NCBI RefSeq assembly: GCF_006912135.1
Contig: NZ_VIRS01000003.1
Coordinates: 62,001 to 126,000, forward strand
Direction of reading: 5' to 3'
DNA from: Cryptosporangium phraense
GTDB taxonomy: Bacteria > Actinomycetota > Actinomycetes > Mycobacteriales > Cryptosporangiaceae
Length of the DNA stretch: 64,000 bases
Shown: positions 53,146 to 56,872 of the stretch, in pieces
Position numbering within the stretch: position 1 is the stretch's first letter
Layout of the letters: each line of letters begins with the position of its first letter
The notes under the pieces: model-generated
Database searches by the model: none
What the model saw: the letters and a program-made list of their open reading frames with translations, nothing else
Told to the model about the DNA's origin: nothing
Position numbers and translations under genes: made by a program

Positions 53146-53394
53146 CCGGCAGTCGCCTACGGCCTGGAAACGCACGGCGATGTACTGCTTACCCGGCAAC
53201 CGCAGCGGGCCGACGTCTTTGATGGCCGCCTCGAGACGGCCGGCGTCGCGCCCGGTCGGGAAGTTCGACGAACAGCGCGTCCTCGATCTGGCCCGGGCAG
53301 GCGTGGACGCCCGGACCTTCACCGCCATCGCCGACACCGCTCTGGCTGTCCTGCCTGGCCGGTCTCGCCGGTGAGGACCGGGAGCCTCCGGGGC

Positions 53395-53735
53395 TGTCCG
53401 GTCTCGTTCCGCCGCGCCGGGCGACCTGGTCCGAGCGTTCCGGAATCGTCACCGCGACCTTGCGGCGTCGCAGCGCCGCGTGGGTCGAGGGATGAGAGTA
53501 GGCCTTGTCAGCCACAACCCGGTCCGGTCGCTTCCGCGGCCGGCCGGGTCCCTGCCGGGGCACCGAGATCTCATCGAGCAGCGGCAGGAGTGGTGGGTAG
53601 TCGCCGGCTTGACCAGCGGTCAGCCGGACGGCCATCGGCCGTCCCCGGCCATCGACCGCGCCGGGATCTTGCTGCTCAGCCCGCCGCGGGACCGCCCGAT
53701 CGCCTCGCCCGCGACCGCAGCCACCGGGATGCCCG
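53395..53735 (-). mobile_element. IS5-family transposase fragment with a frameshift
   Basis: On the minus strand the middle of an IS5-type DDE transposase can be read: RSRGGLSSKI, then after a one-base shift VDGRGRPMAVRLTAGQAGD, PGRPRKRPDRVVADKAYSHP (catalytic Asp region) and TIPERSDQVARR. Both ends are missing. The flanks (53146-53394 and 53736-54007) contain no recognisable gene. Confidence 0.82.
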
Positions 53736-54777: not shown

Positions 54778-55679
54778 ATGACTACTTCTGCTGCGTCTCG
54801 CTCTGGCCAGGGTCTCTTTGATCTGGCGGTGGCGGCCTATCTGCGGCGCTACCGCGGAACGTCTCGGCTGCACTCCGAGTCCGACCTGCGGGTATACCTC
54901 CGCTGGTGCGCCAGCGAAGCCCTCGATCCGCTGGCGGTCGCCCGCGTGGACATCGAGCGCTACCTCCGCTGGCTCCAAGACGTCCGCTGCTTCCAGCCCT
55001 CCACGGTGTCCCGAAGGCTGTCAGTCGTGGTCGGCTTCTGCCGCGTCTGCGTCATCGACCAGGTCCTGTCCCACTCGCCGGCCGACTACGTCCGCAGACC
55101 CCCTGTTCCACCTGAATCCCCGACGCTCGGACTCGGTCACCTGCAGTTTGAGGCGCTACTCACGACCGCCAGACTCTCGGCGAACACCAACGACTTCGCG
55201 CTCATCGCGATGGTCGGCCTGCTCGGATTACGGATCTTCGAAGCCACCGGAGCCAACATCGCCGACCTCGGCGAGGAACACGGTCACCGCGTCCTGCGTG
55301 TCCGCGGCAAAGGCGGCAAGGTAGTCCTCGTCCCGCTCCCGCCAGCCGTCGGCCGAGCGCTCGACCGCGCCGTCGACGAACGACTCGGTGGACCGATCCT
55401 CCGGAACATCCGTGGCGGCCGGATGGATCGGCATGCAGCGACCCGTCGGCTCAAGCACCTCGCGGCGATCGCCGGGGTCCGGATGCCCAGGATGCACCCG
55501 CACATGCTCCGGCACACCTTCGTCACCACGATGCTCGACGCCGGCGTCAGCCTCCGCGACACCCAGATCGCGGCCGCCACGCCGACCCGCGAACCACGAT
55601 GCGCTACGACCGAGCTCGCAAGAACCTTGATCGTCACCCGAACTACATCCTCGCCGCATATATGGCCTCCGGGACGTAG
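54778..55679 (+). pseudogene. Tyrosine recombinase (integrase), frameshifted near its end
   Basis: From ATG the protein has a SAM-like N-terminal domain (DLRVYLRWCASEALD, STVSRRLSVVVGFCR) and the catalytic domain with Arg152 (GLLGLRIFE), Lys178 (RGKGGK) and His242-x-x-Arg245 (HMLRHTF). After QIAA the frame goes wrong: one base is missing near 55572-55580, and in the next frame the true ending follows, HADPRTTMRYDRARKN with the catalytic Tyr, stopping at 55679. As given, the product lacks the nucleophile and would be inactive. It was probably the recombinase that moved this island. Confidence 0.85.
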
Positions 55680-55807
55680 CACCGACACGCGACCGTGCCG
55701 AGAAGAGCATATTCATGGCGCTCGGAGGCCCCTAGTAGATAGATAATCACTGCCGGTCGGCAAGTACAAGACTTGAATTTTGCAATGATCGCGCTGATGC
55801 TTCGTCC

Positions 55808-56514: not shown

Positions 56515-56544
56515 GGCCCGGAGCGCGGGTTCGCGTTCCGGGCC
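56515..56544 (-). terminator. Terminator of the 44-residue peptide gene
   Basis: 13-bp inverted repeat (ggcccggagcgcg / cgcgttccgggcc, one mismatch) with a 4-base loop, 17 bases downstream of the peptide gene's stop on the minus strand. Confidence 0.75.
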
Positions 56545-56561
56545 GGGTCCTGCTGGGTGGT

Positions 56562-56696
56562 TCAGTTGCAGTAGCTGTAGTCCCAGCAGTCGTTGTGGTG
56601 GCGACGCTTGTGGTGGCGACGGCGCGGGCGGCAGTCGTAGTCGTACGAGTAGTTGTCGTTGCAGTAGTCGTACGAGTTGTCGTAGCAGCCGCTCAT
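56562..56696 (-). CDS. 44-residue Cys/Tyr/Asp/His-rich peptide
   Basis: Too short for routine gene calling, but well supported: ATG at 56696 with GGAGG nine bases before it (plus-strand cctcc at 56706-56710), stop at 56564, and a strong hairpin terminator 17 bases on. The peptide starts SGCYDNSYDYCNDNYSYDYD, continues with a basic His core (RPRRRHHKRRHH) and ends NDCWDYSYCN. It holds 8 Tyr, 7 Asp, 5 Cys (4, 12, 22, 37, 43), 5 Asn, 6 Arg and 4 His. There is no signal peptide. The composition suits metal binding, disulfides or post-translational modification; no modification enzyme is adjacent. An acetyltransferase gene lies upstream on the same strand. Confidence 0.75.
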   Translation of the reverse strand: MSGCYDNSYDYCNDNYSYDYDCRPRRRHHKRRHHNDCWDYSYCN

Positions 56697-56872
56697 GTCG
56701 TCCAGCCTCCAGAAGCCGTTTCTCGGGGCCTGTCCCCGTGCTGAAATCAGCTTCCCGCCGGGCGGCCGCCGGCTCGATCGCCGTGGCGACGCCGCGAACG
56801 TTCGGTTCCCAACACTCGCTCGTGCCGCGCTGAGTGCGGAGCACTCCTATGCCGCTGCCAAGGCGTTCCGTG

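Follow-up and report, generated by a model that had tools for sequence, protein, structure and literature searches.

We analysed a 64,000-nucleotide stretch of the Cryptosporangium phraense genome (the window), in which a minus-strand open reading frame (ORF) at 56696..56562 encodes a 44-aa peptide, MSGCYDNSYDYCNDNYSYDYDCRPRRRHHKRRHHNDCWDYSYCN. The features of the locus are collected in Table 1. GGAGG lies at 56710-56706, with the ATG nine bases further on, and the leader that contains it is the most frequent form ahead of family members. Transcription probably starts near window position 56742. The initial annotation had proposed a true peptide gene carrying its own signals, and this holds: the ORF, GGAGG, stop codon and 3' hairpin are accompanied by family matches. 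The decisive evidence is the 21 matches in its own genome, which confirm the 44-codon frame as a real gene and rule out a single orphan frame.

Table 1. Features of the peptide locus, in window coordinates
Feature	Position	Strand	Basis
44-aa peptide gene (family A)	56562..56696	-	ATG 56696, TGA 56564-56562; own-genome matches, family codon bias
Ribosome-binding leader GGAGGCTGGACGAC	56697..56710	-	Directly 5' of ATG
Small GGGG/CCCC inverted repeat in 5' leader	56724..56738	-	By eye; some copies only
Proposed -10 element GAAGCT	56749..56754	-	Promoter alignment; putative assignment
Proposed -35 element TCGAGC	56772..56777	-	17 bases before -10; putative assignment
45-base operator/promoter block AGTGTTGGGAACCGAACGTTCGCGGCGTCGCCACGGCGATCGAGC	56772..56816	-	Best match of model R1, E 9e-13 (R1 was built with the window copy included)
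Terminator-like hairpin GGCCCGGAACGCG...CGCGCTCCGGGCC	56515..56544	-	Fold computed

The terminator that had been proposed stands in part. A strong hairpin is present at 56544-56515, and the 60 bases from the stop codon have a fold energy of -29.5 kcal/mol, but no T-run follows, so we regard the element as hairpin-like and not as a canonical terminator. Hairpin-forming stretches of a similar kind were seen by eye 3' of many family copies. As a chance check, a script collected all GGAGG-placed ATG/GTG starts that open 30-60 codons in the whole window. There are eight, two of which belong to one frame. The peptide frame is an outlier in C/Y/H/W/D/R/K/N content (84%, with the runner-up at 47%), using a residue set picked post hoc with the peptide already known.

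A phage-integrase family ORF (Pfam E 2e-15) occupies window positions 54778-55746; by eye, its usual C-terminal motif seems to carry on in a different frame near 55590, and the gene may be broken. The ORF at 53189-53635, near the peptide copy, looks like a piece of a transposase by eye, as do ORFs near peptide copies at four loci in a second genome of the genus, G001 (L051, L052, L054 and L056). The right third of the window (40000-64000) has a GC content of 0.60-0.70, against mostly 0.69-0.77 elsewhere, and may be an acquired region.

The peptide contains 8 Tyr, 7 Asp, 6 Arg, 5 Cys, 4 His and 1 Trp, with no Ala, Ile, Leu, Val or Phe. Acidic flanks around a basic His-rich centre had been described from the letters, and the segment charges bear this out at about -5.5, +7.1 and -2.3, with the core carrying a net charge of about +7 over 12 residues. 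A pI of 6.9 and this charge order describe a near-neutral acidic-basic-acidic polyampholyte. The family as a whole (1946 residues) consists of 17% Tyr, 15% Asp, 14% Arg, 10% Cys, 9% Asn and 8% His, while Val, Leu, Phe, Ala and Thr each make up about 0.1%. This make-up is low-complexity, polar and poor in hydrophobic residues, a trait of spore-coat and matrix structural peptides. Across the 14 representative rows of profile A1, M1, S2, R26, R27, C37 and W38 are invariant, and G3, Y9, Y18, C22, D39 and Y40 nearly so. Among the Cys, C37 is kept in 14/14 and C22 in at least 13/14, while the remaining Cys are lost in some members. By eye, mirrored aromatic-acidic-Cys arms, [W/Y]-D-Y-x-x-C and D-C-W-D-Y, flank a basic Arg/His loop. 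The AlphaFold model, made from one sequence, shows no clear fold (pLDDT 46), although a model of this kind cannot prove disorder. No signal peptide or other secretion signal is evident by eye, and conservation runs from Met-Ser onward with no visible leader/core boundary, in agreement with the initial view that the peptide lacks a leader.

The own genome (G000; 8.46 Mb, 87 contigs) holds 21 family matches, three of which, including the window copy, are protein-identical (E 5e-26 each). Eighteen of the 21 have their own ATG, including one of just 30 aa; a further two run off contig ends, and no start is present in the last. With profile A1, the other three genomes of the genus yielded 17, 10 and 11 matches including partial ones. 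All told, 4/4 genus genomes examined carry the family, and at E<=0.01 they yield 59 matches when partial ones are counted. Conservation of the frame in relatives had been set beforehand as a test, and within the genus the frame is conserved. One genome of the sister genus in the same taxonomic family (93% complete) gave zero matches. Among 298 genomes sampled from the order, only the four of the genus and one weak match were found, and among 394 sampled from the class, only the own genome and one weak match. We attribute the weak matches, G239 (E 0.009) and G409 (E 0.003), to chance.

Database searches placed the family nowhere else. No relative was found among viral contigs, plasmids and phages, and a phage or plasmid gene was rejected on this basis; nor did a peptide scan of the genome contig collection find any, with near records possibly missing from both sets. 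None of 14 members matched Pfam, NCBIfam or PADLOC, the last meaning that no defence-system model was hit, and PDB sequences gave 0 matches to profile A2. Of five members compared with PHROGs, two matched one family at best E 1.2, and one matched another at E 0.32. The titles and abstract openings of the literature searched do not mention the family. It is unnamed by every library searched and known so far only from its own genus. Sequence comparison shows a genus-restricted family of peptides mostly 39-46 aa long, present in G000 as about 20 dispersed single-gene units, nearly all of which carry the shared promoter block and ribosome site. What we regard as new is the family together with its regulon; how the peptide works may yet turn out to be of a known kind.

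To compare coding sequences, 55 copies were located by script via the core motif in translation, and the 46 starting with Met-Ser were aligned; the other nine comprise a 30-aa copy, two that do not begin with Met-Ser and six truncated by contig ends. The aligned copies have seven lengths (39, 40, 41, 42, 43, 44 and 46 codons), and all are open in-frame, although choosing copies by their core motif accounts in part for the kept frame and the constant core. Because picking was done in translation, frame-shifted copies could be missed; the truncated copy G000:C60:15677 turned up through its promoter. Mean within-genome identity is 0.79-0.94 for the ORF, 0.61-0.70 for the promoter and 0.52-0.55 for the flanks, the last being at chance level (shuffled upstream DNA aligns at ~0.51). 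Whole-unit copying as in MITE/REP elements does not produce this profile and was rejected. The third base of Arg codons differs in 32-49% of within-genome Arg/Arg comparisons, where 0.53-0.58 is expected if independent. pN/pS is 0.37 within G000, G001 and G002, 0.77 within G003 and 0.62-0.80 between genomes. A significant surplus of synonymous variants was seen in one of the three genomes tested: p is 0.0013 in G000, 0.50 in G001 and 0.20 in G003. Altogether, pN/pS and the synonymous counts suggest that the protein is partly kept while its arms drift.

Codon use is a stronger coding sign than either of these measures. CGT and CGC are favoured Arg codons, and CGT accounts for 44, 44, 40 and 32% of Arg codons in the peptides of G000, G001, G002 and G003 (102, 75, 25 and 66 codons), compared with 9-11% for neighbour ORFs and, in the G000 ribosomal region (a yardstick of one region with 22 ORFs), 18%. 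CGG makes up 4-14% in the peptides versus 38-40% in neighbour ORFs and 37% in the ribosomal region. For Tyr, Asp, Asn, His and Cys, C-ending codons reach 93-100% in the peptides, 96-100% in the ribosomal region and 80-95% in the neighbours. An Arg codon bias beyond that of ribosomal genes suggests selection for bulk translation. Combined with about 20 copies, it makes it likely that the peptide is made in quantity.

The family also shares a promoter. A 45-base block with constant inner spacing stands upstream of 46 of the 49 copies having enough upstream DNA (six of the 55 do not). The three copies outside the promoter alignment are one that lacks the block and a pair on G003:C11, of which one adjoins an assembly N and the other has a weak block. 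That the block is gap-free is partly by construction, since rows were placed by their best ungapped consensus match; the constant spacing is backed by a fixed-gap mismatch pattern and its reversed control. With up to 3 mismatches allowed, the pattern occurs at 29, 25, 10 and 12 sites in G000, G001, G002 and G003 (76 in total), and the reversed pattern has 0 sites in each of the four genomes. The block continues gaplessly to GAANCT, in which the A at position 2 and the final T each occur in 45/46 rows; the row that departs there by eye, G000:C33, has a shorter leader. We suggest an architecture of an operator TGTY-N6-CGAACGTTC-N4-CGT, a -35 element TCGAGC, 17 bases, and a -10 element GAANCT.

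We compared this block with ECF41-type promoters, which have the form TGTCACA-n16-CGTC (PMC3426412). The block resembles them in having TGTY...CGTY with the same 16-base spacing. However, its -35 consensus is not TGTCACA, and conservation reaches GAANCT 60 bases on. We rejected an ECF41 promoter as such because, despite the matching spacing, the -35 is different and the conserved block extends further. A sigma70-type core with an upstream operator would fit better for the same reasons, while the shared n16 spacing means that an ECF promoter may be an alternative.

The 76 sites were assigned by hand. Family genes follow 49 of them (two of these genes run into contig ends), other small peptides follow 6 and DUF3558-type genes 5; the rest are 8 remnants or a captured frame, 1 site at a contig end and 7 without assignment (two of which were not read). 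Among the other small peptides, a Cys peptide has the promoter in 4/4 genomes and is open over 46-52 aa in G001, G002 and G003, with a stop after six codons in G000. A Tyr-rich peptide of 36-37 aa occurs in G002 and G003, the G003 site being found only via a weak R1 match (E 0.018). The peptide MSHHRDDHGHWDHHDDHGKHRRRRRHHRKHRDENWGWGHS at G001:8960490 (locus L046, about 490), whose promoter pattern has 3 mismatches, shares the family layout, with His replacing Tyr/Cys; it is a His/Asp/Arg version with zero Cys and zero Tyr. This sister peptide would fit a charge-pattern rule over a fixed fold.

DUF3558-type genes with the promoter were found in 4/4 genomes (G001:6563436, G000:C45:44344, G003:C11:244519 and G002:C1:1025178; loci L188-L191), and G001 additionally has a promoter-bearing paralog. 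Two of the five were tested and matched Pfam DUF3558 (E 2e-11 and 4e-11); the others were assigned by likeness. In G001 and G003, the DUF3558-type gene lies beyond a metal-repressor-type gene. In G001, adjoining Trns_repr_metal and HMA matches (Pfam) lie near it, with a divergent gene and a LigB gene standing between the metal genes and DUF3558. In G000, it lies near an ORF with a HAD-hydrolase match, which we take for the end of a P-type ATPase. A literature search for DUF3558 together with lipoprotein found nothing. The initial annotation had also raised a link to the cell wall; this lacks direct support, with no signal peptide evident by eye, though DUF3558-type lipoprotein genes share the promoter.

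Two further sites show unusual contexts. At G000:C60:13924 (L138), a gene with a LexA DNA-binding domain directly follows a truncated family frame and its weak promoter-like block (R1 E 0.009); the same 22.9-kb contig carries a contig-end-cut copy and a truncated copy. At G001:2967400 (L119), the promoter, ribosome site and a TTG start now open a membrane-protein-like frame, as if captured.

Copies are solo units with unrelated flanks. We surveyed 43 regions around copies with a crude ORF caller and all-against-all BLASTP. Apart from the peptide, no gene family was shared by more than 6 of these regions, whose genes were annotated in part; this makes an operon with a maturation enzyme unlikely. 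The recurring neighbour families resemble common regulators, transporters and transposases, judged by first residues only. One locus pair, G002:C10/G003:C44, is syntenic, with 10 shared neighbour genes; a weaker pair, G003:C50/G002:C19, shares 2. The peptide ORFs of the first pair are 93% identical, versus 97-100% between loci within one genome. With this one syntenic pair as its basis, the pattern fits copies kept alike by concerted evolution. Upstream DNA does not decide the matter because it is 72% identical in the syntenic pair versus 70-73% between loci. Remnants that keep promoter and terminator without the frame show copy loss; at one locus, recognized by eye from a shared terminator in G000, G002 and G003, the frame survives in G003 alone.

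Several known systems resemble the family by description. Streptomyces chaplins are a dispersed set of small developmental structural proteins, several with a Cys pair, and are secreted, hydrophobic and made with a signal peptide. By this description, the peptide family is likewise a dispersed small-protein set, but it has no evident leader and nearly no aliphatic residues. Prokaryotic metallothioneins are small, Cys/His-bearing and without a leader; the peptides share these traits but match no Pfam profile, vary in the number and places of their Cys, and have many Tyr and Arg. CotC of Bacillus subtilis has a Tyr- and charge-rich make-up, and to our knowledge neither CotC nor CotG is present in about 20 copies in Bacillus. 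Both were compared with the peptide family by description, sequence testing having been done with the family libraries alone. B. subtilis CotG is an abundant, disordered, highly charged protein with 47% K/R/H, 9% hydrophobic and 6% acidic residues (PMC9765600). The peptide family is similarly charged and hydrophobic-poor, but CotG, with only 6% acidic residues, is not balanced by acidic arms. SspA of Actinoplanes missouriensis is a putative disordered protein needed for firm sporangia, and a sortase-dependent wall protein (PMC13293333). By that description, it resembles the family in its putative disorder and actinomycete origin and differs in its sortase-dependent place in the wall.

What, then, does the peptide do? 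An abundant, self-associating structural or condensate peptide is our best reading, held tentatively. A metal buffer or chelator, in which Cys, His, Asp and Tyr would hold Cu, Zn or Fe and a metal-responsive regulator would induce the copies together, strikes us as rather unlikely. Five Cys and four His within 44 aa suit it, as does the His-rich variant, which still has metal-binding side chains in place of Cys and Tyr, and the promoter-sharing DUF3558 gene lies near Trns_repr_metal/HMA genes in G001 and the HAD-hydrolase ORF in G000. However, strong conservation is limited to two Cys, others being missing from several members, and no conserved Cys/His ligand set was found. Pfam gives no match, the divergent and LigB genes separate the metal genes from DUF3558 in G001, and no family recurs in more than 6/43 copy regions, where annotation was incomplete and scattered metal genes could be missed. 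We consider it unlikely that the peptide is a polyanion binder whose Arg/His core would pack RNA, DNA or polyphosphate like a small histone or protamine, with acidic arms tuning release. The core of about +7 occurs in 46/46 aligned copies (picked by that motif), the leader is absent and codon bias suggests bulk translation, but the whole peptide is near neutral, which protamines are not; the aromatic acidic arms are conserved in part too, and neither Pfam nor PDB sequences gave a match.

The initial annotation had also offered a precursor of a modified peptide. For a RiPP precursor cross-linked by an enzyme encoded elsewhere, the gene is suitably short, and Cys, Tyr and Trp are typical cross-linking substrates. 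Yet the 39-46 aa peptides have no leader, the regions around copies contain no gene family beyond the peptide in more than 6/43 cases, and some 20 dispersed copies would be unusual, so this origin is disfavoured and seems highly improbable. A non-coding mobile repeat (MITE/REP-like) merely resembling a gene is barely credible: many dispersed copies, contig ends inside copies in G000 and G002, and the remnants are what it would predict, but homology peaks over the reading frame and not the whole unit, with flanks at chance, and Arg third bases vary (32-49% of within-genome comparisons) under a marked Arg codon bias. The initial interpretation as a whole is partly supported, and the metal-binding and redox roles that it had suggested may apply; read from the letters only, it could not show the multicopy family or the shared promoter.

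Returning to the structural or condensate reading, the sequence itself shows the family, its copy number, its promoter, its coding nature and its composition; we infer co-regulation, abundance, self-association, Cys locking and a structural role. A single regulator would switch all copies on together, and copy number together with favoured codons would yield an unfolded, near-neutral triblock peptide in bulk. The acidic Tyr/Trp-Asp arms ('WDYNDC', 'DCWDY') may bind the Arg/His core of neighbouring copies, and the two best-kept Cys, once oxidised, could lock the core or bridge peptides. The product would be a dense self-associated matrix or condensate, formed when a stage of growth or a stress calls for structural material in quantity. 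Because no signal sequence is evident, the peptide would act inside the cell or be deposited on the inner envelope face or around spores; for the same reason, a place in the wall or on the spore surface is speculative. A link to the sporangium is likewise speculative.

In its fullest form, the proposal is possible but doubtful: a private genus regulon whose bulk output would be a new bacterial building material, a ~20-copy, aliphatic-free triblock polyampholyte that condenses via Tyr/Asp-Arg/His contacts, sets by Cys oxidation and is kept alike by concerted evolution. If bulk production is confirmed, the family would provide a self-contained model for bacterial low-complexity material and for keeping many copies alike, and the shared promoter would be a ready handle on the family's regulator.
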